Assembly (NCBI GenBank): GCA_020831585.1
Contig: JAFIGE010000008.1
Span: forward strand, 1 to 63,217
Direction of reading: 5' to 3'
DNA: 63,217 nt
Source: Opitutales bacterium
GTDB taxonomy: Bacteria; Verrucomicrobiota; Verrucomicrobiia; Opitutales; Oceanipulchritudinaceae
Shown: positions 6,325 to 63,217 of the stretch, piece after piece
How the letters are laid out: every line of letters starts with the position of its first letter
Numbering within the stretch: the first letter of the stretch is position 1
Notes under the pieces: generated by a model
The model's database searches: none
What the model was told of the DNA's origin: nothing
The model's input: the letters and a program-made list of their open reading frames with translations, nothing else
Program-made: the position numbers and the translations under genes

Positions 6325-7101
6325 ATGCTCGGCAGTCGGCTCCTGCGGACCCGCCCATCTGAACGAACCACCTCCCTCCCTCCTTCCGTGCCACCCTCTC
6401 CCGGACCGCATCCACCCGACTCCCCAACCAAGGGTGTAGGCCGATTTTGGCATCATCTGCGACAGCCTGGCCCGGAAAAAAACCTTCGGCGCCTGCTCGT
6501 TTATGCCGTTATCGGCCTGGCCGGGTTTTTCCTCCTCTTCGCTCTGCTCCGCTATCTCCCCACCGAGGCACTGATCGAAGAGCTCCGCGGCTGGGGAATC
6601 GTTCCTTTCTTCATCGGGTTTACCCTGCTTCCGCTTGTGGGCTTTCCGACCACGCCGTTTTACCTTGTCGCCGGCGCAACTTTCGGGACCCTTGCCAGCA
6701 TTATCGGGGCTTCGCTGGGGCTGGCGGTTCAGTTCGCCCTCGCCTACTGGCTTGCGAGCAGATTTCTGCGAAATTGGATCGGGTGGCTCGTTCGCCGCGC
6801 CGGCTATACCATTCCGGAGGTCAAGCCGGCTCACCATCTGCGCGTCACCCTTATCGTCAAAGTCACGCCAGGTCCGCCCACTTTCCTAAAGAGTTACATC
6901 CTGGGATTGGCGAAAATCCCGTTTTCGACGTTCTTCCTTGTGTCGTGGACGTTCTCCACCGCCTACGCTCTCAGCTTCATCCTACTGGGCGAGTCTCTCA
7001 TCGAAGGTGACTTGAGACAAGGCCTCCTCGGCCTACTGATCCTGGCGGCAACGGTCGGCGTCGTCTTTCTCTTGCGCAAGCGCTTCCCAAAGAAGACCTG
7101 A
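6325..7101 (+). CDS. TVP38/TMEM64 (DedA-like, SNARE-associated) family membrane protein
   Basis: A 258-residue protein with a proline/serine-rich N-terminus of about 45 residues, then a membrane domain. TM1 is at about 53-74. The family core follows: GFTLLPLVGFPTTPFYLVAGATFG (re-entrant loop with FPTTPF) and a ~90-residue domain ending in a GLAKIPFSTFFLV block and two C-terminal TMs. VTPGPPTFLKSYILG matches the conserved F/V-P-x(n)-N/Y-x-x-x-G element of TVP38 proteins. The family moves lipids across membranes and works as half-transporters in the inner membrane. The N-terminal ATG is uncertain: the rich Pro/Ser leader may be non-native and starts nearer the membrane domain exist. The 3' end of the gene is part of a 285-bp tandem duplication. 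Confidence 0.8.
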   Translation: MLGSRLLRTRPSERTTSLPPSVPPSPGPHPPDSPTKGVGRFWHHLRQPGPEKNLRRLLVYAVIGLAGFFLLFALLRYLPTEALIEELRGWGIVPFFIGFTLLPLVGFPTTPFYLVAGATFGTLASIIGASLGLAVQFALAYWLASRFLRNWIGWLVRRAGYTIPEVKPAHHLRVTLIVKVTPGPPTFLKSYILGLAKIPFSTFFLVSWTFSTAYALSFILLGESLIEGDLRQGLLGLLILAATVGVVFLLRKRFPKKT

Positions 7102-7555
7102 GTAAATCTAATTAATCTGGACACCCACTCCCCGCTCGCCAAACGCTCTGCCGTCAAGTTTATTTACGCGGTTCGCAGTTTTTGATTTCCAGTTTATTCT
7201 CGCTTCATCCCCCCCCGCCATCGCCACTCGTGAGGGCGTCAATTATATTTTGCGCGGTAGCGGTTGTGTGTGGGCGAGTCTCTCATCGAAGGTGACTTGA
7301 GACAAGGCCTCCTCGGCCTACTGATCCTGGCGGCAACGGTCGGCGTCGTCTTTCTCTTGCGCAAGCGCTTCCCAAAGAAGACCTGAGTAAATCTAATTAA
7401 TCTGGACACCCACTCCCCGCTCGCCAAACGCTCTGCCGTCAAGTTTATTTACGCGGTTCGCAGTTTTTGATTTCCAGTTTATTCTCGCTTCATCCCCCCC
7501 CGCCATCGCCACTCGTGAGGGCGTCAATTATATTTTGCGCGGTAGCGGTTGTGTG
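6986..7555. repeat. 285-bp direct tandem duplication (two units: 6986-7270 and 7271-7555)
   Basis: The last ~116 bases of the TVP38-like gene plus 169 bases of downstream sequence are repeated head-to-tail with a period of exactly 285. No mismatch was seen on reading both units, including a C8 tract and the segment CGGTTGTGTGTG. The unit boundaries share only the dinucleotide TG. The second unit therefore carries a headless copy of the gene's C-terminal codons and supplies the immediate upstream region of argG. It is either a very recent duplication by slippage or end-joining, or an assembly artefact. Confidence 0.95.
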
Positions 7556-7608
7556 TGAAAGAAGGACTTGCCGCCGGTAGGTGAGCGTCTAGCGTTCGTG
7601 GTTTTACC

Positions 7609-21570: not shown

Positions 21571-22572
21571 ATGAGCATGAGTAGGAGATATTCTCGTCGA
21601 TTACGGTATCCACGATTAGCTTGTCACCACCTTATTTCGAGGGTGGTGCAGAAAAGGTGGCTGATGGATGAGGAGGCGATGGAGGCGATGAGGCATATCA
21701 TGCGCTCGCAGGCGGCGTTTGCGGGGATGGAGGTGCTGACGTATTGCTTCTTGGCGAATCACTTTCACATCTTCGTACGACTGGATCCGAAGGAGACGGA
21801 GGATTTGGACGATGCGGGGCTGGTGGGGCGGTTTCGGGCGCTCTATGGGGGGACACGCTGCGCTTCGCTGGGCTTGGATGCAAAGGATTTGGAGGTGATT
21901 CTGAGGAAGAACGGGGGCTCCGCAGAAGGAATACGTCGACGCCTGAAGGCGCGGATGGGGGATGTGTCGGTCTTTATGCGGGAAGTGAAGACGCGCTTTA
22001 CCTTCTGGTATAATCAGAAGTGCGGGACGGTGGGCACCTTTTGGGCGGAGCGTTTCCGCAGTGTAGTGGTGGAGGCAGATACGGCGGCGCAAAGGATGGT
22101 GGCCGCCTACATCGACTTGAATCCGGTGCGGGCAGGCTTGGTTGCGGATGCGGGCGACTATGGTTTCAGTGGTTTTGGGGAGGCTTGCGCGGGTGGCTCG
22201 GCGGCGCGGCGGGGAATCGCGAGGATCGAGGGAAGTGCGTCCTGGACGACGAAATGGCACGAGCGCTACCGGGCGCGGTTGTGTAGCCGGATGGCGCCGG
22301 GAGAGTGCTCTCGCCAGGGAGCCGACCGGAAGCCTTCCGAGGGGGCGAAGGGCGAGAATAGGGGAAGCGCCGTTGCGGCCGAAGGATCCCGGCTTCTCTC
22401 GAAGATCCGCGCTTTCAGTGAGAGCTGGGTGGTTGGGTCGGTTGCATGGGTGGAGAGCTTCTGCGGGGCAAATGGTTGGCTGGGCTTTCGGAAGGGAAGA
22501 AGGGCCAAACCGGCCGTTCAGAACGGAGGGGATGATTTCGAAAAGATCGCGACTGCCGCAAAACGACGCTGA
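21571..22572 (+). CDS. REP-associated tyrosine transposase (RAYT, Y1_Tnp family), copy 1
   Basis: A 333-residue protein with a single-strand transposase (HUH/Y1) domain. The N-terminal RYPRLACHHLISRVVQKRWL is the usual RAYT beta-strand. ANHFHIFVRL contains the metal-binding HFH, and the FTFWYN helix carries a candidate catalytic Tyr in the family position before GTVGTFWAERF. AAYIDLNPVRAGLV is the conserved RAYT C-terminal helix. The remaining ~120 residues are lineage-specific. RAYTs are thought to mobilise or process REP palindromes, which are plentiful in this window. A second copy starts at 62736 with a similar upstream block (TGTTCTGAAnATTT...CATTGACA). Alternative ATG 21577. Confidence 0.88.
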   Translation: MSMSRRYSRRLRYPRLACHHLISRVVQKRWLMDEEAMEAMRHIMRSQAAFAGMEVLTYCFLANHFHIFVRLDPKETEDLDDAGLVGRFRALYGGTRCASLGLDAKDLEVILRKNGGSAEGIRRRLKARMGDVSVFMREVKTRFTFWYNQKCGTVGTFWAERFRSVVVEADTAAQRMVAAYIDLNPVRAGLVADAGDYGFSGFGEACAGGSAARRGIARIEGSASWTTKWHERYRARLCSRMAPGECSRQGADRKPSEGAKGENRGSAVAAEGSRLLSKIRAFSESWVVGSVAWVESFCGANGWLGFRKGRRAKPAVQNGGDDFEKIATAAKRR

Positions 22573-40578: not shown

Positions 40579-40610
40579 TTGCCCACCCACCCGTCGTCCC
40601 TCGCCTCTTG

Positions 40611-41103
40611 GTCAAGTATTAATGACCAGGTAAATGCCTGATCAACCGCAACGCCACACGCCCCCGGCGATCCACGCGCGTCCCGCCGTTGCCGCTAAAG
40701 TAGGCGGTCTGCTTCAGCGTCCGCCACGAGACAGCCACAGCCCCCGGCACACCCGCCAAAATGGCGCGGGTCAAGTATCAACGACCAGGTAAATGTTTGA
40801 TCGTAAATGTTTGATCAACCGCGACGCCACACGCCCCCGGCCATCCACGCGCGTCCCGCCGTCGCCGCTAAAGTAAGCGGTCTGCTTCAGCGTCCGCCCC
40901 AAGACGGACACAACCCCCGGCACACCCGCCAAAATGGCGCGGGTCAAGTATTAATGACCAGGTAAATGCTTGATCAACCGCAACGCCACACGCCTCCGGC
41001 CATCCACGCGCGTCCCGCCGTCGCCGCTAAAGTAGGCGGACTGCTTCAGCGTCCGCCACGAGACGGACACAACCCCCGGCACACCCGCCAAAATGGCGCG
41101 GGA
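40611..41103. repeat. Three-copy tandem repeat (units start 40611, 40770 and 40943)
   Basis: Three successive, nearly identical units of 159, 173 and ~160 bp begin with GTCAAGTATyAAyGACCAGG and end with CCAAAATGGCGCGG. The middle unit has an extra 14-bp internal duplication (AAATGTTTGATCGT). On the minus strand each unit carries an open frame of about 45 codons with a conserved tail (SWRTLKQ.AYFSG.GGTRVD.R.RVALRLI.HLPG then stop). The repeats may therefore be amplified 3' ends of an unknown gene. Confidence 0.9.
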
Positions 41104-43318: not shown

Positions 43319-44164
43319 TCAGATCAAGGACAGGTGCCGGAACAACGTGGCTTTGTCCGCAAAGGGAGGGTGCTCCCGCAGATGATGCCGAATCTTTGCT
43401 TCAATATCCGTCCGCAGCATTTGGTCCTCCGTCGTATCGGCAGCCCAATGGCGACCGGGATGAAGGGTATCCCAGGGAGAGCGTTTGTTCGCCCGGGTCG
43501 TTGCCCGATCACCATGTTTACCCAAACCGAAACAGATCTTCGTCTGCTTGTTCCAGATCGGACGGAACAACCGGATCATAAAATCCTCCACGGCCATTTG
43601 CATACCCGATTGAATGGGGGATGCGCGGTAGCGGAAGTCTTCCAAGCGCAAATCGGTCTTCGCAATGTTCTTGGCATGCTCCCGTAGGCGCGAATAGAGG
43701 GCCACGCCTTGTTCCTCGGTTGATTCAGCCTGCGGGTTTTTCGGATCGGCCTTTCCCACGTAAAGAGGCGTTTCGCTGCCGGAAAGCGGCTGGTAAACGG
43801 GCATGCCCCCGCCAACAAAATAAACCGCATAGACGCCCGATCCGTAGAAAGGACAGGTCTCCAACTCCACGAGCGGCCGCATTTCCTGATTGCAGAAGCT
43901 AAAGGCAAAGAAGCGGGCAATGCTATCGGAGCGACCGAGCGTGATACCCAGGCTCCCGATGGAGACCGCCGAAAAGGTTTCCCGGAAGGACCGCAATGCT
44001 TCCACCAGTTCGCCCGCAGAGGAAACGGCTTTTTGAACGGCTGGGGAAGTTCGGTTGGTTTCCGCGTGCTTCTCCCGAACTGTTCGGCTCAGTAGGCGGT
44101 TCAGCTCCTTTATCTGCCGCTCTATGCCTTGAAAGGAAGGATGCGGTTGATCGGAGCCGCTCAT
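43319..44164 (-). CDS. Eco29kI-family GIY-YIG type II restriction endonuclease
   Basis: A 281-residue protein. A GIY-YIG nuclease core is visible: CPFYGSGVYAVYFVGG with, downstream, ETPLYVGKADP (the YIG strand), followed by the ALYSRLREHAKNIAKT helix with a catalytic Arg and an AVEDFMIRLFRPIWNKQTKIC block with the conserved Glu. The C-terminal GKHGDRATTRANKRSPWDTLHPGR is typical of Eco29kI/Cfr42I-type enzymes, which cut CCGCGG. The start ATG overlaps the methyltransferase stop (ATGA), so expression follows the methylase. CCGCGG occurs in this window (e.g. 8430-8435, 38182-38187). Confidence 0.88.
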   Translation of the reverse strand: MSGSDQPHPSFQGIERQIKELNRLLSRTVREKHAETNRTSPAVQKAVSSAGELVEALRSFRETFSAVSIGSLGITLGRSDSIARFFAFSFCNQEMRPLVELETCPFYGSGVYAVYFVGGGMPVYQPLSGSETPLYVGKADPKNPQAESTEEQGVALYSRLREHAKNIAKTDLRLEDFRYRASPIQSGMQMAVEDFMIRLFRPIWNKQTKICFGLGKHGDRATTRANKRSPWDTLHPGRHWAADTTEDQMLRTDIEAKIRHHLREHPPFADKATLFRHLSLI

Positions 44165-45354
44165 CGAAGAGATGTGGCCGAGGCTACGTGTTTGCCAACG
44201 CATCGGCGGCGAAATTGGGCCGTCTGGAGACGGGCTGCAATAGAGCGGCCGACCGCCTCCGCAAGTTTGACCGGGACGGCATTGCCCAGTTGGCGCATGC
44301 TCTCCGTCCAGGAACCGGAAAAACAAAAGTTGTCCGGAAAGGTCTGGATGCGTGCCGACTCGCGCACAGTGAAATACCGCACCTGGCCATCGGCATGGCG
44401 GAGCATGTTTTCTCCCCCGGGGACACCATGGTCGCCCGCCTTGAGCGCCTTCGCGGGCTCATCCAGGGGGCTGCCGGTGTGGCCGGGATAGCTGCGTGCG
44501 CCCGGCTGGAAAACATGATTCGTTTCCGGCGAGGATGCCTCGCGCGGATCGGGGAGCCCGCTCAGCGCATCCCGCACGGTCCGCCACCGCGCCGTCGGGC
44601 GGAGGAGTTCGCCCGTGGCCAGGCGCGACAGCCGACGCGCCATCGAACCCGGAGGCTCATCGGGGGATAGGCCGAATTCACGCCAATAATCCCCCGAGAC
44701 ATACTTTGCCACAAGCAGGTCGTCCTGCGTGTGCGTGGCGGGTGGAAAAGACCAGCCCACGTCGAGGTCGTTGCGAAAACCGACAAAAAACACGCGGTGG
44801 CGGCGCTGCGGCACCCCGTAATTGGCCGCATCCGCCAAATGAACCATGACCGCGTAGCTCGCGCCTGCTTCATCGCGCGCTGACGAATGAAAGCGCTGCA
44901 AGCGACGCAGGTTCGTCGTCCAATCAACATTTTGGGAAACGGGAAAGGTCGGATGGGCGAGTTGCAGGCGGATATACTCAACGTAGTTTGCAAAAGCCGA
45001 GCGCAGAAGCCCCCGCACATTTTCAAAGAGGAAGGCGGGCGGGAGCAACTCCCGCACGGCACGGACCGCCTGGGGGAACATATCGCGCGTGTCCTCGTAA
45101 CCCCGCGCCTTTCCACCCATGGAGAAGGGCTGGCAGGGAGGTCCGCCCGCGACCAGATCCACCGGGCCTACCCCCGGAAAATCAACATCCCGCACATCCC
45201 CCTCGACCACCGTCCATTCGGGGCGGTTCAGGCGCAGCGTCCCACAGGCATCGGCATTGCGCTCGTAGAGAGCCACGGAAGCAAACCCGGCCCGCTCCAG
45301 ACCGAGAGCCATCCCTCCCGCTCCCGCAAACAGCTCAATTGAACGCATGATCAC
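44161..45354 (-). CDS. DNA (cytosine-5-)-methyltransferase of the Eco29kI-like system
   Basis: A 397-residue C5 methylase with all key motifs: I (IELFAGAGGMALGLERAGF), IV (VAGGPPCQPFS, catalytic Cys74), VI (FLFENVRGLL, Glu111), VIII (NYGVPQRRHRVFFVGFRN) and the C-terminal IX/X (ESARIQTFPDNF; RQLGNAVPVKLAEAV). A variable target-recognition region lies between VIII and IX. It protects host DNA from the cognate endonuclease encoded downstream. First of a two-gene operon. Starts ATG 45354 or ATG 45348. The pair appears complete and could be active. Confidence 0.95.
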   Translation of the reverse strand: MIMRSIELFAGAGGMALGLERAGFASVALYERNADACGTLRLNRPEWTVVEGDVRDVDFPGVGPVDLVAGGPPCQPFSMGGKARGYEDTRDMFPQAVRAVRELLPPAFLFENVRGLLRSAFANYVEYIRLQLAHPTFPVSQNVDWTTNLRRLQRFHSSARDEAGASYAVMVHLADAANYGVPQRRHRVFFVGFRNDLDVGWSFPPATHTQDDLLVAKYVSGDYWREFGLSPDEPPGSMARRLSRLATGELLRPTARWRTVRDALSGLPDPREASSPETNHVFQPGARSYPGHTGSPLDEPAKALKAGDHGVPGGENMLRHADGQVRYFTVRESARIQTFPDNFCFSGSWTESMRQLGNAVPVKLAEAVGRSIAARLQTAQFRRRCVGKHVASATSLR

Positions 45355-45471
45355 ACATTGGGTGAGCGCATGGATGCTGTAAAGTCCGAAGGGATGAAAG
45401 TGCCAAATCGTGCAGAATCACTCGAAAAGTGGATCCGACCGGACAGATCGACCGCCGGTGACCTCTCGCAA

Positions 45472-47965: not shown

Positions 47966-48060
47966 CCTTCCGGACGCACGGGGCAGGAATGGGTGGAACG
48001 CGATGGGAACTTCCTGGCCGAGCGCCAACACTTGCCGTGGCCGCCAGATGACTCCCCGCC

Positions 48061-48240: not shown

Positions 48241-48501
48241 TTAAACCTTCAGAATCTCCGTGATCTGGACTTCCTTTGAGGCGTGATCGATCCAGTAAGT
48301 AAATAAAAACTCCTCCAACAAAAGGTTGTCGATTGGGCGGCCCTTTGCATCCGTCGTCCGATAATCGCTGATGAACTCCGGGGACGCGGCGATTCGCTCG
48401 ACCAACCCAAAGACTTTCCGCTGTTTGTCCTTGGGCAGCCCAATTACGAAAGAAACCACCTCGGCTGATAAGTAACAGGTATAGTCGGGGAGTTCAGGCA
48501 C
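48241..48501 (-). CDS. RelE/ParE-like toxin
   Basis: An 86-residue protein with GTG start 48501. The RelE/ParE fold is suggested by an N-terminal strand and helices (YLSAEVVSFVIGLPKDKQRKVFGLVERI) and C-terminal strands (NLLLEEFLFTYWIDHASKEVQITEILKV). The usual R-x-L-x-x-x-I-W-E block is replaced by GRPIDNLLLEEFLFTYWID. Its start lies within the antitoxin 3' end (8-base overlap). Part of its N-terminal coding region, with the antitoxin 3' half, is duplicated at 49348-49546. Confidence 0.75.
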   Translation of the reverse strand: MPELPDYTCYLSAEVVSFVIGLPKDKQRKVFGLVERIAASPEFISDYRTTDAKGRPIDNLLLEEFLFTYWIDHASKEVQITEILKV

Positions 48502-48640
48502 GATTGATTTGGCCCTTCAGCTCCGAGAGGGAGAATTTATTGCCGGTTCCCATCTCGTCCAGTCGGCGGGCGGTCTCCTCCTTCCACTCTTTCGACTCCT
48601 GCCCCAGCCGAACAAGAAAGGCGGACACCTCCCGGCGGTC
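48441..48640. repeat. 200-bp segmental duplication, copy A
   Basis: Matches 49348-49546 almost base for base (a few substitutions and a one-base difference near ACAGGTATAGTC/ACAGGTTAGTC). It spans the 3' half of the antitoxin and 5' part of the RelE-like toxin. Confidence 0.92.
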
Positions 48641-49227: not shown

Positions 49228-49651
49228 GACACCACTGAATCACATTTTCACAGTTTCACAAGGCAATGCTTTGATCAAAACGCTTCTTCAGGCCAGGAAA
49301 TGGGCACCGTCCGAGGGTCAAAACGCCAAATGGGGGTCCTGTGTTTTCAATTACGAAAGAAACCACCTCGGCCGACAGGTAACAGGTTAGTCGGGGAGTT
49401 CAGGCACGATTGATTTGGCCCTTCAGCTCCGAGAGGGAGAATTTATTGCCGGTTCCCATCTCGTCCAGTCGGCGGGCGGTCTCCTCCTTCCACTCTTTCG
49501 ACTCCTGCCCCAGCCGAACAAGAAAGGCGGACACCTCCCGGCGGTCGTAGATTTCGTGTCCCACCAGGAAGACCCGTCGCTGGAGGGCCATGCTCCGTCA
49601 TGGCCGCTGAGGAACGCCCGGCAACTTCCGTCATATCCGTTCCCAACGCCT
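49228..49651. other. Non-coding stretch with toxin-antitoxin debris
   Basis: Contains the partial duplicate (49348-49546). At about 49570 it has CTGGAGGGCCATGCTCCGTC, which recurs at about 59006 and is a likely REP-like element. No gene is supported. Confidence 0.5.
49348..49546. repeat. 200-bp segmental duplication, copy B
   Basis: Partial copy of 48441-48640, carrying the antitoxin 3' half and the first codons of the RelE-like toxin. The copied antitoxin end is joined at 49547 to unrelated sequence, so it cannot make a normal protein. Confidence 0.92.
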
Positions 49652-50634: not shown

Positions 50635-51549
50635 GTGGAATACGGCACCCTGATTTTGATGACCTCGCTATTGGGCGACAGCCTCGCGCTCGGCGGGCAC
50701 TGGCTCTACAACCAAGACGAGATCGCCGCCCAGATCGGGCCTGAGCTGCGCTTGAGCGCCCCGCTCTCGCGCTACCATCCCGGAAAGGGACCGGGTGATC
50801 ACACCCACTACGGAGACCAAACCCTCATCCTCCTCGAGAGCGTGGTCTCCCAGGGAACTTTTGACCCGGAGGATTTCCTCCAAAGTTGGCGAGCCTACTG
50901 GGCTGATCCCGACACGCTCAGCTACCGCGATGGTGCCACCCGCACAACCCTCGCGAATCTCGCTCAGGGAACGGCCCCGTCTGAGGCGGGGTCGGCCTCC
51001 TCCGACATCGCCGGGGCGGCCCGCATCGGTCCCTTGTTTCTCCTTGAATGGGAGAATGCGGACGCCCTCGCCAAGGCTGCCCGCGCTCAAACCGCGCTCA
51101 CCCACAACCATGCGGCGGTGATGGAGGCAGCGGATTTCTTCGCCCGGGTCACCCTCAAGGTGGCCGACGGTATGCCCGTGCCCACCGCATTGGCCACCGT
51201 TGCCGACGAGGGCGCATGGGAAACCTTGTCCCCTTGGTGGGACGCTGCCCGCGCCTCCGCTGCTGACACCGGTCTCGGCGATACGGAGGCGGCCCTGCAT
51301 CATGGCCAAAGTTGTGCTGTTGACGGGGCCTTCCCTCTCATCTGCCACCTCTTGCTCCGCTATCCCGACGATGCCATTGCCGGATGGTCCGCCAACCAAA
51401 TGGCCGGAGGGGATACTGCCGCCCGCGCTCTCCTCATGGGGCTGGTCTATGGAGCGCGACCGGACGCGCCGCCCCTCCCCGCCGACTGGCTCACCACCTG
51501 GACCGCCCGCCCTCAGGTCGAAGCCGCTGCCCGCGCCCTGGCGAACTGA
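50635..51549 (+). CDS. ADP-ribosylglycohydrolase family protein
   Basis: A 304-residue helical protein, GTG start. LLGDSLALGGHWLYNQDEI is the N-terminal metal-site helix (GD-x-LA-x-G). HYGDQTLILLESVV is the next metal-binding element, and NQMAGGDTAARALLMGLVYGA corresponds to the C-terminal G-G-D-T-x-x-x-A block. The family removes ADP-ribose from proteins or nucleic acids, or acts on related substrates. In defence-rich regions such enzymes may counteract ADP-ribosylating toxins. A copy of its last ~20 codons plus downstream bases is found at 53090-53180. Confidence 0.85.
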   Translation: MEYGTLILMTSLLGDSLALGGHWLYNQDEIAAQIGPELRLSAPLSRYHPGKGPGDHTHYGDQTLILLESVVSQGTFDPEDFLQSWRAYWADPDTLSYRDGATRTTLANLAQGTAPSEAGSASSDIAGAARIGPLFLLEWENADALAKAARAQTALTHNHAAVMEAADFFARVTLKVADGMPVPTALATVADEGAWETLSPWWDAARASAADTGLGDTEAALHHGQSCAVDGAFPLICHLLLRYPDDAIAGWSANQMAGGDTAARALLMGLVYGARPDAPPLPADWLTTWTARPQVEAAARALAN

Positions 51550-51684
51550 GGAGGGCTTTGGCTCTCTCTCTGGCTCGGCAGTCAAGTAAATTATACCAGA
51601 AAAAATCTTTGGCTAAAGGGGCACGAAACAGTGGATTGCAAAAGCCTTTTGATTTCTATCACTGGAGGTTTGTTGTTACCCGAA

Positions 51685-52506
51685 ATGGAAATCATTTCCG
51701 TGATTGTGTCCTGCTTCAATAACTGGCGGACGGTGCAGCTGACGCTGTTTTCGCTGGAGGTACAGACGGATCGCTGCTTTCAGGTAACTCTGGCGGACGA
51801 CGGCTCCAACGAAGCCTTCCGCCGGGAAGTTGAGCAGTTTCGGGCGACGACCGTCCTGCCCATCGAACATGTCTGGCATCCGGACCAGGGTTTCCGAAAA
51901 GCGTCTATTCTCAACAAGGCGTTATGGGGGGCAAAGTGCCGATATCTGTTGTTCACCGATGGAGATATCGTCCTGCGGGCAGACTGGGTTTTCCAGCACC
52001 GGTTGGCCGCCCGGCGAAATACGTTCATGGCAGGCGGGAGCCATATCAATATTCCAAAGGACCTGCAACAGCGCATTACCCGTTCAGAAATCCAACAACA
52101 GTGTTTGTTTGATTATCGGTGGCTTTCCGATAATGGCGTATCATCGGCCCGGCGCATTCGGCTTCGGCTGGGCACTTATGGGTGGAGAGCCCGATTGCTG
52201 GACGCCTTGACCGCGTGTCGCGACAGCTTTGTGGGCTGCAGTACAGGTTGCTGGAAAGAAGATGTCGAGCGGGTGGGCGGCTTTGATGAAACGTTTGGCT
52301 ACGGCGGGGAAGACCGCGATCTCGGCATCCGATTGGCAAACGCCGGGGTTCGTGGCGTTCGTAAAAGGTATAGCTTCGCCTGCGTGCACATGGATCACTC
52401 CCGCCCATACAGCGATCCGGTGGAAGTAGCGCGTTGCAAGGCACTGTTGAAGGAGAGACGGCGGCGGGGAATCACCCACCTCGCCCGGAAACCGGAGGCA
52501 TCATGA
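51685..52506 (+). CDS. Family 2 glycosyltransferase with galactosyltransferase-like C-terminal motif
   Basis: A 273-residue protein from ATG 51685 (MEIISVIVSCFNNWRTVQLT). The GT-A fold is shown by IISVIVSCFNNW at the N-terminus, CRYLLFTDGDIVLRADWV (DxD-type metal site) at about residue 90, and YGGEDRDLGIRLANAGVRG (GT7-type ED motif) near residue 215. It is a soluble cytosolic transferase, usually for polysaccharide chain extension. It is isolated here between an ADP-ribosylglycohydrolase and methylase debris, with no other polysaccharide genes close by. Confidence 0.88.
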   Translation: MEIISVIVSCFNNWRTVQLTLFSLEVQTDRCFQVTLADDGSNEAFRREVEQFRATTVLPIEHVWHPDQGFRKASILNKALWGAKCRYLLFTDGDIVLRADWVFQHRLAARRNTFMAGGSHINIPKDLQQRITRSEIQQQCLFDYRWLSDNGVSSARRIRLRLGTYGWRARLLDALTACRDSFVGCSTGCWKEDVERVGGFDETFGYGGEDRDLGIRLANAGVRGVRKRYSFACVHMDHSRPYSDPVEVARCKALLKERRRRGITHLARKPEAS

Positions 52507-52901
52507 CCGTCTATTCGTTTCATTTTCCCGGGCTTGATTGCCCCTGGACCAGCAAGCGGACGATGGCGCGGCGAAATCAGCCGTCTGCGCGAAGCTCACC
52601 CAACCGAGCCCGCGACAAACTGAACGGCCTGCACCCAAACAACTTATGACCCGGCATGTTCTATTGTGAGGCGGATGAAATCTGTCGTGCCGGCAATGAA
52701 GACCGCCCAAAAGGCGGCACTCCCGTCGAGACGGGCAGTCCAAAGCTGGATGACCAAGCTGACTGGTGCCGTCGGAAAGATGTGTCAACGGCACCCTGAC
52801 TCCGTTCCTATCGTATTCGCTAATTTTGGCTCGGGTGTTGTGCTCTTTGCGAAAAGCCCTCGGCTTGACGGAGTTCAGTGCTGCGGACAACTTGAGAAAC
52901 T
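52507..52901. other. Non-coding stretch preceding methylase stub 1
   Basis: No gene supported. The last ~80 bases resemble the region before stub 2 (54520-54605), including CTCTTTnCGnAAAnCC and CGGCTTGACGGAGT, so the duplicated segment begins upstream of the stub start codon. Confidence 0.5.
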
Positions 52902-53090
52902 ATGGAACTGGCTTCATTAGAATTGTGCGCCGGTGCAGGAGGCCAGGCAATCGGATTGGAACGCGCGGGCTTCGCGTGTGCCGCAGCGGTCGAGTTGGAT
53001 CACCATGCCTGCGCGACCTTGCGCGCGAATCGCCCTCATTGGGAGATTCTTGAGCAGGATGTGCGCGATCTGGATGGAAGGGCCTTCCGG
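52902..53090 (+). pseudogene. 5' stub of a C5 DNA methyltransferase, copy 1
   Basis: ATG 52902 opens MELASLELCAGAGGQAIGLER, with AGFACAAAVELDHHACATLR and WEILEQDVRDLDGRAFR: motif I, the acidic loop and motif III of a cytosine-5 methylase. The sequence stops matching after ~62 codons and joins DNA derived from the end of the ADP-ribosylglycohydrolase gene. The catalytic PPCQ and all later motifs are absent, so it is non-functional. Confidence 0.85.
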
Positions 53091-53180
53091 CTGGCTCACC
53101 AACTGGACCGCCCGCCCACAGGTCGAAGGCGCTGCCCGCGCGCTGGCAAACTGAGGAGGGGTTTGGCCCTGGGTGCCCCC
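53090..53180 (+). pseudogene. 3'-end fragment of the ADP-ribosylglycohydrolase gene
   Basis: GGCTCACCAACTGGACCGCC and onward reproduces 51489-51560 with a handful of substitutions, including the TGA stop and the following AGGAGGGnTTTGGC. It encodes WTARPQV.GAARALAN in the frame of the original gene but is fused to a methylase stub in a different frame. Confidence 0.88.
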
Positions 53181-53581
53181 TCGCCGGTTCCTCCGCGAGA
53201 AATGCCTGTTGCTAAAGTGTAGTTGGGTCGGCCTTGGCCCCCAACACCAGTTTGATGGCCTGTTCATCCGCATCCAGCGAGGTTTTCGAAGGCTGTTACT
53301 GGCCAGTGGGCTGCCTGTACGAGTCAGCCCCCATCCCTATTGCCGCTAGCTCCGGCATGGCGGTCAGTTAGTTATGATCACGCAGTGGTTGGCCCAATTT
53401 TCCAGGCTACTGTTTTTTACAAAAATCATTAAATTCAAGCGCAGACCCTTCTGAGCATGACTGTAATCAAGCACGATATTTCTCCCGTGCTGTTCTAATA
53501 TAGAACACGAACTCCACCAAAATCAGTTATGTTACGTGAATGGAGTCAGGTGATCCTGAAAGGCGTGAATATCGTGGATCG
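53181..53581. other. Intergenic region before the XRE-HNH pair
   Basis: No gene supported. AT-rich stretches around 53395-53530 (e.g. CTGTTCTAATATAGAACACG near 53490, with inverted GTTCTA/TAGAAC arms) may be the promoter/operator for the XRE regulator. Confidence 0.45.
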
Positions 53582-53806
53582 ATGAACATTGTCGGCGGGC
53601 GTGTGAGGCTGGCCCGGCGCCAACTAAAGCCGCCATTGACACAAGACCAATTATCCGGACGCCTTGCCGGACATCGCGTTTCATTAGACCGCGCCGCCAT
53701 AGCAAAAATTGAATTAGGCCTTCGCCGGGTGACTGATTTTGAGACCGTGGCCCTAGCTCAGGTCTTGAAAGTCGATGTGACTTGGCTCCTTGGGATTCAC
53801 TCATGA
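53582..53806 (+). CDS. XRE-family helix-turn-helix regulator (C-protein-like)
   Basis: A 74-residue single-domain HTH protein. Residues from ATG 53582 (MNIVGGRVRLARRQL) lead into LTQDQLSGRLAGHRVSLDRAA, IAKIELGLRRVTDFETVALA and VLKVDVTWLLG, a complete lambda-repressor-like fold. The size and its position immediately before a nuclease gene, with a 4-base ATGA overlap, resemble controller (C) proteins of restriction-modification systems, which delay endonuclease expression. A TTCTA..TAGAA palindrome ~90 bases upstream is a candidate binding site. Confidence 0.8.
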   Translation: MNIVGGRVRLARRQLKPPLTQDQLSGRLAGHRVSLDRAAIAKIELGLRRVTDFETVALAQVLKVDVTWLLGIHS

Positions 53807-54486
53807 GTTTCGATCCCGGTTTGCTTTTGAGAAAGGCGACTGCCCGCGCGAAATCGGATGTCGCCAACAAAATGGTCTCGATGCTCCTGCATGAGCTGAG
53901 TCGTTTTATTTGTCTGGAGACGAAGTTTTTTATCAAAAGCCCTCCCTACATTGAGCTGACAATAGATTTCTTCGGGACTTTGTGCCCATATTGTCGGAGG
54001 GAACTCATTAAAGGCCAGTGCGTTGTCGAGCACCTTGAAGGTATGAATCGATACCGCGCGGGCCTGCACACACCCGGAAATGTTCTTGTCTCCTGCTCAG
54101 AATGTAATCGTGAGAAACGCCGGGACGACCAACGAAAAGACCTTCGGCTGGCACCGACGGGGTGGGGTTCATTCCTTCGACATGACGGTATACTGTGCAG
54201 CTCAATGGCTTGCAAATCTTGTGCCTATTGGGCAGGGTTATTTCCATCGTTCGTCGACAGGGCTGACCACCTCGCCAACGCCCGAAGGCGAATTCAATCC
54301 TTTCACGAAACTGAAGAAATCCGGCAAGTGATGCTTTTTTCGGAGCCCCTTCGATGTTCAGCAAAGAGTCTCCTAGAGGACTTTTATACGAATGCGCAGA
54401 ATGACGCTCGGGAGAGAGTATTCAACGCGCTGAGGGCCTTGCAGGCGAACGAGGGAAGCGGGCAGTGTAAGGAGCTGGATAAGTAG
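53803..54486 (+). CDS. HNH-family endonuclease, possible restriction enzyme
   Basis: A 227-residue protein. A zinc-bound HNH module is centred at residues ~65-115: CPYCRRELIKGQCVVEHLEG (first Cys pair and catalytic His), LHTPGNVLVSCSECNREKRR (second Cys pair and the conserved Asn). An N-terminal helical region (residues 1-60) and a C-terminal region with another Cys set (CSSMACKSCAYW) would give target binding. It is translationally coupled to an XRE regulator, which suggests a C-R arrangement, but no intact methylase is adjacent (only a stub lies on either side). A stand-alone or orphan nuclease is also possible. Confidence 0.75.
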   Translation: MSFDPGLLLRKATARAKSDVANKMVSMLLHELSRFICLETKFFIKSPPYIELTIDFFGTLCPYCRRELIKGQCVVEHLEGMNRYRAGLHTPGNVLVSCSECNREKRRDDQRKDLRLAPTGWGSFLRHDGILCSSMACKSCAYWAGLFPSFVDRADHLANARRRIQSFHETEEIRQVMLFSEPLRCSAKSLLEDFYTNAQNDARERVFNALRALQANEGSGQCKELDK

Positions 54487-54618
54487 ATGATGTTGGGTTC
54501 TCCGCGCGCTTGTAGGCTCTCTTTTGCGCCATAATCGGCGAAGATTGAGCGGATAAGCGCTCTTTACGGAAAACCATCGGCTTGACGGAGTGCAGAATTG
54601 CGGACAACTTGAGAAAGC

Positions 54619-54810
54619 ATGGAGTTTGCATCAGCACAATTGCCTGCGGGTGCAGGAGGCCCGGCAATCGGATTGGAACGCGCCGGCTTTGATCGCGCTG
54701 CAACAAAGGTTGAATTGGATCGCCGCGCCTGCCCAACCATACTCGTAAACCACCCCCGATGGCAGATTCTTGAGCAGGATGTGCGCGATCTGAATGGAAG
54801 GGCCTTCCGG
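54619..54810 (+). pseudogene. 5' stub of a C5 DNA methyltransferase, copy 2
   Basis: ATG 54619 opens MEFASAQLPAGAGGPAIGLE, with AGFDRAATKVELDRRACPT and WQILEQDVRDLNGRAFR, clearly the same protein start as stub 1 but already degenerate (C8 to P in motif I). It diverges at the same codon (GRAF) as stub 1. The upstream ~80 bases are also shared. It lies directly in front of the NgoMIV-like restriction gene, where the cognate methylase would be expected. Confidence 0.85.
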
Positions 54811-54848
54811 GGAGTGGATTTGTATGTCTTCGAAAGTGCCCCTTCTCC

Positions 54849-55709
54849 ATGAACGCCTCCGCCTTCGCCCACCTTCGTGCCAGCTTTTTTGAAAGCCTCC
54901 TGGATTCGGTTTTGACGACCGACAGCAACGGCATCCCCAGCATCGCGGATCGAAACCAGAAATCGAGTATCGCCATCTCACAGGGCATCGTTCGCCGACT
55001 CGGCGAGATCCAAATGGCGACAAAAGTTGCCGGGCAGATTTCCGGAAACTCATTTGAAACCAACTGCCTGGAATTCATTGAAAAAGCCTTTGGCCTGCTC
55101 TCTCATCTGCGGCCCGGGAATTGGGGAATCGAACGGGTGACGAATCCTCGCTCTGATGGCGTTGCCCGCTTCGAACAATATGCCCACCTGACCGCGCTGA
55201 AGAGACTGGCAAAAGTCGATGCCGATTTGGCCGCCTCCCTCGGCAATGATTATGCCGTTCTGCCCGATATTCTCCTCTTCCGCTGGCCCGAAGAAGACGC
55301 GGACATCAACCGGCACTCACCCCTTGTCGATGAATCGTTAGCCCGGCAAACGGGCCTGCGCCGGATAAACAACCCCCTTCCTCTCATCCACGCCAGTGTA
55401 TCCTGCAAGTGGACACTCCGCAGTGACCGCGCGCAAAACGCGCGTTCCGAAGCCCTTCATCTTATCCGCAACCGCAAAGGGGGGTGTCCGCACATTCTTT
55501 TTGTCACGGCCGAGCCGTCCCCCAGTCGGCTTTCTCCGCTGGCCCTTGGAACGGGCGACATTGATTGCGTCTATCACGTTGCTCTCCCCGAGTTGATCGA
55601 GAGCGTCCGTGAAATCGATAATGATGAGGCCCTTGCTATGCTCATGATGATGGTCGAGGGCAAACGCCTCAAGGATCTCACCGACCTTCCGCTGGACCTT
55701 GCCGTATAG
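54849..55709 (+). CDS. NgoMIV-family type II restriction endonuclease
   Basis: A 286-residue protein, the same length as NgoMIV. The known NgoMIV active-site residues fall at identical positions: E70 (GNSFE), D140 (YAVLPDILLF) and S185-C186-K187 (ASVSCKWTLRS), followed by DRAQNARSEALHLIRNRKGG. NgoMIV is a tetrameric enzyme that cuts GCCGGC in two copies. The gene appears intact with no frameshift. The cognate methylase is reduced to a 62-codon stub, although GCCGGC is present in the window (e.g. 6670-6675, 6799-6804). Protection must come from elsewhere or the enzyme is unexpressed or inactive. Confidence 0.92.
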   Translation: MNASAFAHLRASFFESLLDSVLTTDSNGIPSIADRNQKSSIAISQGIVRRLGEIQMATKVAGQISGNSFETNCLEFIEKAFGLLSHLRPGNWGIERVTNPRSDGVARFEQYAHLTALKRLAKVDADLAASLGNDYAVLPDILLFRWPEEDADINRHSPLVDESLARQTGLRRINNPLPLIHASVSCKWTLRSDRAQNARSEALHLIRNRKGGCPHILFVTAEPSPSRLSPLALGTGDIDCVYHVALPELIESVREIDNDEALAMLMMMVEGKRLKDLTDLPLDLAV

Positions 55710-56549
55710 ACCCCTCGCCTCGTTTAAGCAATTTTGGCCAAGTATTAAATTTACCACTCGGGCACAAGCCACCCGGCAATCAGTGAACTCCAAAACGGCT
55801 CATCTCATTTTTCCAGGGGGAAAAAGACATAATCCAGCACGGCGGTCCGGCCCGCACGGAGGGCGGTGCGGCGGGAGGCTACATTCAATCGATCAATGGT
55901 GCCGATGAACAGGCGGTTGCGCTCGCGGTGGGGCCGGTGGGCCCAAGCCCTCTGCGCGGAAGCAGCGAAGCCATGACCATTGAAAGCAGACAAGACCACC
56001 TCTTCGATCACCTCGCCCCGAACAACCGATTCGCGAGCACCCCTTGAAACGCCAGAGATGACCAGTCCGATGGATTCACGACAAAATTTGCGTGGAATCC
56101 GGTCGCTTGGTCAACCCATCATCCGCGACGCTACCTGACCCGAGGTGCGGGATTTCGACTACCGCGAGGCTCCATTGGCGCGGTTAAGTTGCTCGCTCGC
56201 CGGAGCCGCGTTCTTCAGACGCGGTTTGCGAGGGCCGCTTGCCGGGTTTGCGGCGGTAAAGGATTCCTTTTGCTCCGTTTTTCCAGCGGAGCTGGCCTGT
56301 TCTGAGAGGGTGGGAAAGGCGGCGGAGGGGGAATCCTCCGCGCAGGTGGACGAAGGCGGCGGGCAGCGGGACCGCCTAAAGGCGGGACTTGTCCAACAAG
56401 TCACTTGCTTAACGGAGCGCCATTGGGGCGCAAGCCCTCCGCTCCGAAGCTGGGCTTTCGTCCGGGATGTTGTGTTGAGCTTAACTGGTTGGAGTTGTGA
56501 CAGCGCAAAAGGCTTTGCATGGATCGGACAGATTGCTAGATTTTGGCGT
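55710..56549. other. Non-coding stretch with gene debris
   Basis: No supported gene. The minus strand near 55805-56030 ends a frame reading RNRLFIGTIDRLNVASRRTA then LDYVFFPLEK, possibly the tail of an unknown protein. Bases 56126-56165 resemble 57715-57753 of the metallopeptidase-like gene (CGCTACCTGACC...GAGGTGCGGGA) with an extra C, another partial copy. Confidence 0.4.
56126..56165 (+). pseudogene. Fragment copied from the HExxH protein gene
   Basis: CGCTACCTGACCCGAGGTGC and the following GGGATTTCGACTACC match the 3' part of the gene at 57309-57812 (codons for RYLTEVRDFGY), with one inserted C and a few substitutions. Confidence 0.6.
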
Positions 56550-62597: not shown

Positions 62598-62735
62598 TGC
62601 GGCGGAACGGCCGTGGTCTAGGCCACAAGGCCATCCGGCGGAAGCCAGACAATGCGTAAATCCTACCAGACTCCATTTTAAATGTTCTGAACATTTCCGC
62701 ATTGACAGGCGGTAACTAGGTGTTTGAGTCGGATC

Positions 62736-63217
62736 ATGAGCAGAAAATTTTGCCGAAGATTGAAGTATCCACGATTGGCTTGCCACCACCTTATTTCGAG
62801 GGTGGTGCAGAAAAGACGATTGATGGATGAGGAGGCGATGGAGGCCATGAGGCATATCATGCGCTCGCAGGCGGCGTTTGCGGGGATGGAGGTGCTGACG
62901 TATTGCTTCTTGGCGAATCACTTTCACATCTTCGTGCGGCTGGATCCGAAGGAGACGGAAGTCCTGGACGACGCAGGGCTGGTGGGTCGCTTTCGGGCGC
63001 TCTATGGGGGGACGCGTTGCGCTTCGCTGGGGCTGGATGCGGATGATTTGGAGGTGATTCTGAGGAAGAACGGGGACTCCGCAGAGGGTATCCGTCGACG
63101 CTTGAAGGCGCGGATGGGGGATGTGTCGGTCTTCATGCGGGAGGTGAAGACGCGCTTTACTTTGTGGTATAACGGGGAGCGCGGGACGGTGGGGACTTTC
63201 TGGGCGGAGCGTTTCCG
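62736..63217 (+). CDS. REP-associated tyrosine transposase (RAYT), copy 2, cut by window end
   Basis: The first ~160 codons of a second RAYT, from ATG 62736. It differs from copy 1 (21571-22572) by about a dozen residues over this length, with the same HFHIFVRL metal motif, MGDVSVFMREVKTRFTLWYN and GTVGTFWAERF blocks. The upstream region shares TGTTCTGAAyATTT and CATTGACA with copy 1. The start at 62736 gives MSRKFCRRLKYPRLACHH. The C-terminus lies beyond the window. Confidence 0.9.
   Translation, partial: MSRKFCRRLKYPRLACHHLISRVVQKRRLMDEEAMEAMRHIMRSQAAFAGMEVLTYCFLANHFHIFVRLDPKETEVLDDAGLVGRFRALYGGTRCASLGLDADDLEVILRKNGDSAEGIRRRLKARMGDVSVFMREVKTRFTLWYNGERGTVGTFWAERF

Follow-up and report, generated by a model that had tools for sequence, protein, structure and literature searches.

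Type II restriction-modification (R-M) systems of the NgoMIV/NaeI kind pair a restriction endonuclease (R) with a cognate C5 methylase (M), and in their intact relatives the methylase gene precedes that of the endonuclease. NgoMIV and NaeI both recognise GCCGGC. A cell whose methylase is lost ahead of the endonuclease should die, and how R-M operons come to be dismantled is for that reason an open question. Here we analyse a stretch of 63,217 nucleotides from an Opitutales bacterium (Verrucomicrobiota; assembly GCA_020831585.1, contig JAFIGE010000008.1, positions 1 to 63,217), hereafter the window, in which a 286-aa endonuclease with the NgoMIV catalytic residues lies beside methylase stubs that belong to the cognate C5 family. 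The window differs from the known systems in carrying no working methylase, in containing the 5′ end of M twice, and in the insertion of a gene pair encoding an XRE regulator and an HNH nuclease (XRE-HNH). The reading we put forward, with about even confidence, is that of a wrecked NgoMIV-type (GCCGGC) R-M operon, its methylase reduced to two 5′ stubs, together with a self-contained XRE-HNH module that recurrently invades such operons in a homing-like manner. To the question of how these operons are dismantled, the window contributes an intact NgoMIV-type endonuclease without a linked methylase.

Several other described systems share features with this locus. Solitary restriction endonuclease genes are known (Ershova 2012, PMC3488263), and intact endonuclease genes lacking a linked methylase are found both in the window and in another genome, G542, but the present case differs in being linked to an XRE-HNH module and to recognisable methylase stubs. 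Insertion of R-M genes with long, variable target duplications has been reported (Nobusato 2000, Furuta 2010, both as cited in PMC3031569), and the window resembles those cases in that a long direct repeat, made of local sequence, flanks R-M genes; its repeat ends, however, are unequal, the order of decay is reversed and other copies of the module are not bounded by repeats. HNH homing endonuclease genes likewise encode a small HNH nuclease that turns up repeatedly in a single family of target genes, with target sequence on its flanks, whereas the module described here includes an XRE regulator, replaces part of its target rather than splitting it, lies antiparallel to it and has no fixed cut site, its cleavage activity being a prediction. 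As in C-protein-controlled type II R-M systems, a small XRE protein with a palindromic site is encoded near R in some loci, and the XRE of the window gives a weak profile match to C.AhdI (E 0.008); the module XRE nevertheless has an HNH gene as its partner and persists where M or R has been destroyed, and in the window it neither directly precedes nor faces R, which begins 1.0 kb further downstream, after HNH and the second stub. Finally, HNH core residues 54-113 match PtuB of the Septu system (E 1e-8), but the similarity is confined to that core; no PtuA partner was found among the flanking proteins scanned, which come from a minority of the module loci.

The XRE-HNH module and its neighbours

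A strict profile search of 384 sampled genomes of the host’s class, extended by further searches of two subgroups, detected XRE-HNH in 8 of the 384 genomes (a ninth match was to a generic HNH only) and at 17 loci in all, the window included; an eighteenth locus, in G496, is cut by the contig end. The 17 other loci referred to below are these 18 minus the window, and thus include G496, and the palindrome count uses 16 others. XRE stands immediately before HNH in every complete locus, and the XRE of the window matches those of seven other loci at 50-66%. As in C-protein systems, a conserved palindrome lies near the start of XRE: GTTC-N7-GAAC is found upstream of the gene in 14 of the 16 other loci and at 53492 in the window. 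HNH dN/dS is ~0.06-0.13 where calculable, which points to purifying selection on this gene. Judged from sequence, XRE-HNH is a conserved, operon-like two-gene module under purifying selection with a palindrome of its own. On the tree of HNH proteins, flanking by R-M genes requires at least three changes. An AlphaFold2 model of the window HNH protein alone was unusable (pLDDT 34). A phage origin was rejected, since neither single-sequence nor profile searches returned any relative of the module in viral contigs, and none was found on plasmids. Small genes of unknown family stand opposite XRE across the palindrome in several genomes that belong to one family (L034:8425-8877, L137:1854-2426, L136:3294-3632, L071:112-456).

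At 10 of the 17 other loci the module adjoins stubs of M, remnants of its cognate endonuclease or Vsr, the endonucleases involved being NgoMIV, NaeI and two HNH types, and it is thereby recurrently present in one target gene family, as expected of homing genes. Usually, the module runs antiparallel to its neighbours, with a 5′ stub of M (or Vsr) next to HNH and an endonuclease remnant next to XRE; R is on the XRE side and on the opposite strand in seven of eight loci. At such loci M lacks its 3′ part and R often its 5′ part; in intact relatives M is followed by R at this place. With coordinates turned so that XRE-HNH reads rightwards, G882 carries NaeI residues 180-277 to the left of the module and M 3-97 to its right, each encoded on the opposite strand. 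An HNH-type endonuclease fragment and M 1-86 occupy the same positions in G794, as do a short HNH-type fragment and M 4-19 in G631, an HNH-type endonuclease and Vsr in G946, and NgoMIV 71-283 and Vsr with another C5 methylase in G643. M 1-131 lies on the right in G680, whose left-hand neighbour is a wHTH-HNH endonuclease in inverted orientation; G496, at the contig edge, has M 1-97 on the right. On the left are a nearly complete NgoMIV gene in G542 and an HNH-type fragment in G482, and G754 retains a 24-codon M remnant. In G794 the last HNH codons are read from the antisense strand of M, and the joint between module and methylase is therefore physical.

The M-then-R order is found intact and without the module for NaeI (G199, G523), NgoMIV (G556, G596), HNH-type (G488, G228) and wHTH-HNH (G259) endonucleases. 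A preliminary description of the window had proposed looking in relatives for an intact methylase-NgoMIV locus without the gene pair, and G556 and G596 provide it. No GCCGGC-type M was detected in G542, G631, G482 or G256, only the stub was detected in G680, and no convincing methylase remnants lie between XRE and R in G542 and G643. The sole pair of loci with a common joint, G882 and G496 (of one genus), is joined at the same M codon in different methylase alleles: the G882 stub matches the G596 methylase at 77% and that of G523 at 57%, and the G496 stub matches them at 57% and 80%, respectively. Co-conversion could, on these comparisons, be the source of the common codon. Across the 384 genomes, NgoMIV and the module occur in eight each and in four together, for which a hypergeometric estimate made by hand without the window genome gives ~1e-4.

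Two observations concern the same gene families. One methylase family accompanies four endonuclease types in the class (NgoMIV, NaeI and two HNH types; L090, L091, L170, L171, L172, L173, L175), and in G593 (L094:6323-9559) an intact methylase is followed by an NgoMIV gene in pieces ~2.8 kb apart, as if split by an insert.

Methylase repeats and a lone endonuclease

The preliminary description had reported two diverged C5-methylase 5′ stubs with a common leader and, between them, the XRE regulator and the HNH nuclease, all of which are present. The two methylase copies (Table 1) align over 252 bases at 80% identity (blastn E 3e-57), both match Pfam DNA_methylase, and within the 5.28-Mb genome the methylase 5′ end is present at these two places only. 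Because 8 of 10 NgoMIV loci in relatives outside the class carry a complete ~330-aa methylase directly upstream of the endonuclease, the stubs can be assigned to the 5′ end of the cognate C5 methylase. The leader, given earlier as ~80 bp, measures 60 bp, and the two stubs, earlier described as both ending after GRAF, end at different points. Stub 1 ends at 53086-53090, where it is fused, with an overlap of CCG(G), to a second 84-bp copy of the 3′ end of an ADP-ribosylglycohydrolase gene located 1.6 kb upstream (90% identity), and its 106-aa open reading frame (ORF) thus comprises 62 methylase codons and unrelated sequence. Stub 2 is at least five codons longer, running on through RGVDL and perhaps to a decayed PCP motif before a TGA that overlaps the endonuclease ATG. 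The methylase copies are probably older than the 84-bp filler, since they are more diverged (80% versus 90% identity).

A direct repeat therefore stands on both sides of the insert, but its copies are not the same segment ending at the insert borders, since stub 1 ends at the filler and stub 2 continues. Methylase repeats on both sides of XRE-HNH, an arrangement that the preliminary description had proposed searching for in other genomes, were found at none of the 17 other loci; seven of these have no detectable M or R remnant of this kind, and pairs not bounded by methylase repeats were what that description had named as its refutation. Because two-sided repeats are absent from all other loci, the methylase repeats in the window are a local rearrangement and not an att or target site. 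Local partial duplications amount to ~0.95 per 10 kb in the window, versus 0.37 per 10 kb in a 300-kb sample of the genome (~2.5x). No empty site was found: the locus is absent from all close relatives searched, and the host genome is the single one in its genus.

The two stubs differ in their decay. Comparison with 14 outgroup methylase sequences assigns 6-11 lineage-specific changes to stub 2 and 0-4 to stub 1, and when seven of the 14 are taken together these figures become 13 and 1. With a dN/dS of ~0.29 between the stubs, this suggests that stub 2, beside the endonuclease, lost constraint first and that stub 1 remained functional for longer. On these counts, the greater decay of stub 2 is the reverse of the order predicted by insertion with target duplication, under which the left, truncated copy is dead from birth.

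The endonuclease retains all the residues matching NgoMIV E70, D140, S185, K187 and E201 and is, by its sequence, an intact NgoMIV endonuclease with its catalytic residues, whereas the only cognate methylase sequences in the operon are stubs of 62 and ~77 codons. No NgoMIV-type methylase was found elsewhere in the host genome, whose four other C5 methylases are at most ~34% identical over longer alignments. The genome is also well supplied with GCCGGC sites (195 in 377 kb); their observed/expected ratio of 0.59 ranks 13th among 64 palindromes, which is not informative as to avoidance. With no such methylase found and many sites present, the endonuclease would have to be silent or inactive, unless a methylase of overlapping specificity provides protection. 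A second intact NgoMIV-type endonuclease gene, from a genome in which no NgoMIV-type methylase was found, lies at L073:10738-11502, and survival of that cell is likewise unexplained.

Proposed invasion of R-M operons and its alternatives

The recurrence of the module at one position and with one strand order, whichever endonuclease type or methylase allele is involved, suggests that it enters this type of operon, most simply by nuclease-started repair, and it is on this basis that we infer homing-like invasion. The HNH nuclease, whose activity is predicted, would open the R-M operon or a linked site, and the break would be repaired with the module copied in, the R-M genes acting as flanking homology; XRE would repress the XRE-HNH pair. 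In the window, this event or its aftermath may have duplicated the methylase 5′ end, the double stub being a by-product of repair or of local duplication in this lineage. The copy beside the endonuclease would have decayed first, while the upstream copy for a time protected the cell until it was cut in turn by a microhomology junction with the 84-bp templated filler from the upstream gene. A bolder proposal, which we regard as tentative and rather unlikely, is that XRE-HNH represents a selfish or antagonistic module, as yet undescribed, whose homing into GCCGGC-type R-M operons either removes both M and R or captures a methylase-less R under the module's own repressor, in which case the endonucleases of the window and of G542 would be repressed suicide nucleases. 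A module that recurs where intact operons have the 3′ portion of M and the 5′ portion of R, with a single strand order and four types of R, would be a concrete agent of R-M dismantling amenable to laboratory testing.

Several observations weigh against homing-like invasion. Seven of the 17 other loci have no detectable GCCGGC-type M or R remnant. M is truncated at codons ~16-19, 86, 97, 97 and 131 rather than at one insertion point, and no fixed cut site is evident, the joints differing among loci. The window module shares the orientation of M and R, precedes the second methylase leader and has the M 5′ end on both sides; R is inverted in G680, and the remnants in G631 and G754 are short. No recombinase was found at the module, nor any pair of empty and occupied loci within one species, and the GCCGGC specificity of the methylase family is presumed from its NgoMIV and NaeI partners.

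It is unlikely, in our estimation, that XRE-HNH instead belonged from the start to a class-specific layout (M> <HNH <XRE R>) in which XRE, facing R, acts as a controller like a C protein and of which every example seen is in decay. The position of R on the XRE side and opposite strand in seven of eight loci agrees with such a layout, as do the R genes that face XRE in G542 (across the palindrome) and G643 and the weak match to C.AhdI, but an intact M of the family stands beside the module at none of the 18 loci, at least ten intact M genes occur without it, M breaks off at the 3′ end of HNH without any remnant of its own 3′ part in between, and the R types involved are four and unrelated. Because an intact M of the family is lacking at all 18 loci, we also discarded the idea that HNH is an ordinary type II endonuclease served by a methylase of its own.

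A partial tandem duplication, extending from the ADP-ribosylglycohydrolase 3′ end to M codon 62, would account for the repeats with the module merely nearby, each copy having lost a different interior (XRE-HNH in one, the glycosyltransferase in the other). The two repeat pairs do abut at 53087-53090, like a tandem-duplication junction, and partial local duplications occur elsewhere in the genome at ~0.37 per 10 kb; we nonetheless consider this distinctly unlikely, given that the unit interiors have no common sequence, that the repeat pairs are unequal in identity (90% versus 80%), and that stub 1, which under this model was truncated from birth, is the better conserved copy.

The preliminary description had itself proposed that a cassette was inserted and that its target, the 5′ part of the methylase gene, was duplicated in the process. 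What stands of this proposal is the methylase family as a recurrent neighbour or target (10 of the 17 other loci), and analogous cases may be cited in the long, variable duplications reported for R-M genes (PMC3031569) and in the G256 genome, where an N6-type R-M pair is bounded by ~330-bp repeats containing a methylase stub. Repeats that are 20% diverged, unequal ends, the filler at one junction, the reversed order of decay and the absence of bounding repeats at all 17 other loci make it very unlikely; a precise target duplication or att site was rejected on the unequal ends, the filler and the decay order. That the genes are chance neighbours in a defence-gene boneyard is highly improbable, for although positions 43-60 kb are dense in R-M and toxin-antitoxin genes and repeats, with a repeat density in the window ~2.5x that of the genome sample, 10 of the 17 other loci touch one M family or its partners in regular strand order, and four of the 384 genomes have both NgoMIV and the module, each of which occurs in eight.

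Window features and further observations

Table 1. Features of the window around the XRE-HNH module, with the support for each.
Feature	Coordinates	Strand	Support
ADP-ribosylglycohydrolase gene, donor of the duplicated 3′ end	50635..51549	+	Pfam PF03747 E 4e-40
ADP-ribosylglycohydrolase 3′ end, copy 1 (in place)	51482..51565	+	direct repeat D3, 90%
Glycosyltransferase family 2 gene, between the repeats	51631..52506	+	Pfam PF00535 E 8e-11
Methylase repeat copy 1: 60-bp leader and codons 1-62 (stub 1, ATG 52902)	52842..53090	+	80% to 54559-54810; PF00145 E 1e-11; family residues kept
ADP-ribosylglycohydrolase 3′ end, copy 2, fused to stub 1 with CCG(G) overlap	53087..53170	+	direct repeat D3
Palindrome GTTCTAATATAGAAC, likely XRE operator (predicted)	53492..53506	.	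sole GTTCT-N5-AGAAC in window
XRE regulator, 74 aa	53582..53806	+	PF12844 E 5e-6, below cut-off
HNH nuclease, 227 aa, start overlapping XRE stop (ATGA)	53803..54486	+	weak Pfam HNH match; PtuB-like HNH core E 1e-8; family alignment
Methylase repeat copy 2: 60-bp leader and codons 1-64	54559..54810	+	80% to copy 1
Stub 2: 77-codon methylase remnant, overlapping endonuclease start (ATGA)	54619..54852	+	PF00145 E 1e-4; alignment with intact methylases
NgoMIV-family restriction endonuclease, intact, 286 aa	54849..55709	+	PF09015 E 2e-102; PDB 1fiu E 8e-90

A promoter and terminator scan of positions 52500-55900 gave signals not above chance. The 43-60 kb stretch of the window is rich in R-M genes, toxin-antitoxin genes and repeats. 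Another C5 methylase (44161-45354) and an adjoining ORF that appears GIY-YIG-like by eye make up a second R-M candidate (43319-45354), 7 kb away. A REP-like palindrome, TATCCTCGAATCTCTGATTCGGGGCGGCCGGACC, occurs in this defence-rich stretch at 45457, 46316, 47309 and 57916, with a half copy at 48060. A 200-bp direct repeat (48441-48640 and 49348-49546, 98%), comprising the end of an antitoxin-like gene and the start of a RelE-like gene, flanks a VapB-like antitoxin whose VapC is seemingly cut after ~18 codons, as judged by eye. Other duplications in the window include a 287-bp perfect tandem at 6986-7557, an array at 40610-41102 and a 486-bp repeat (21573-22058 and 62732-63217), the second copy of which ends the contig.

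The repeat-bounded N6-type R-M pair of G256 lies at L034:8961-12434. Its ~330-bp direct repeats consist of the 5′ stub of another methylase and a family of ~150-bp elements with 30-nt inverted ends; more C5-methylase stubs follow, and the stretch, used as a query, returned 40 matches in the G256 genome.

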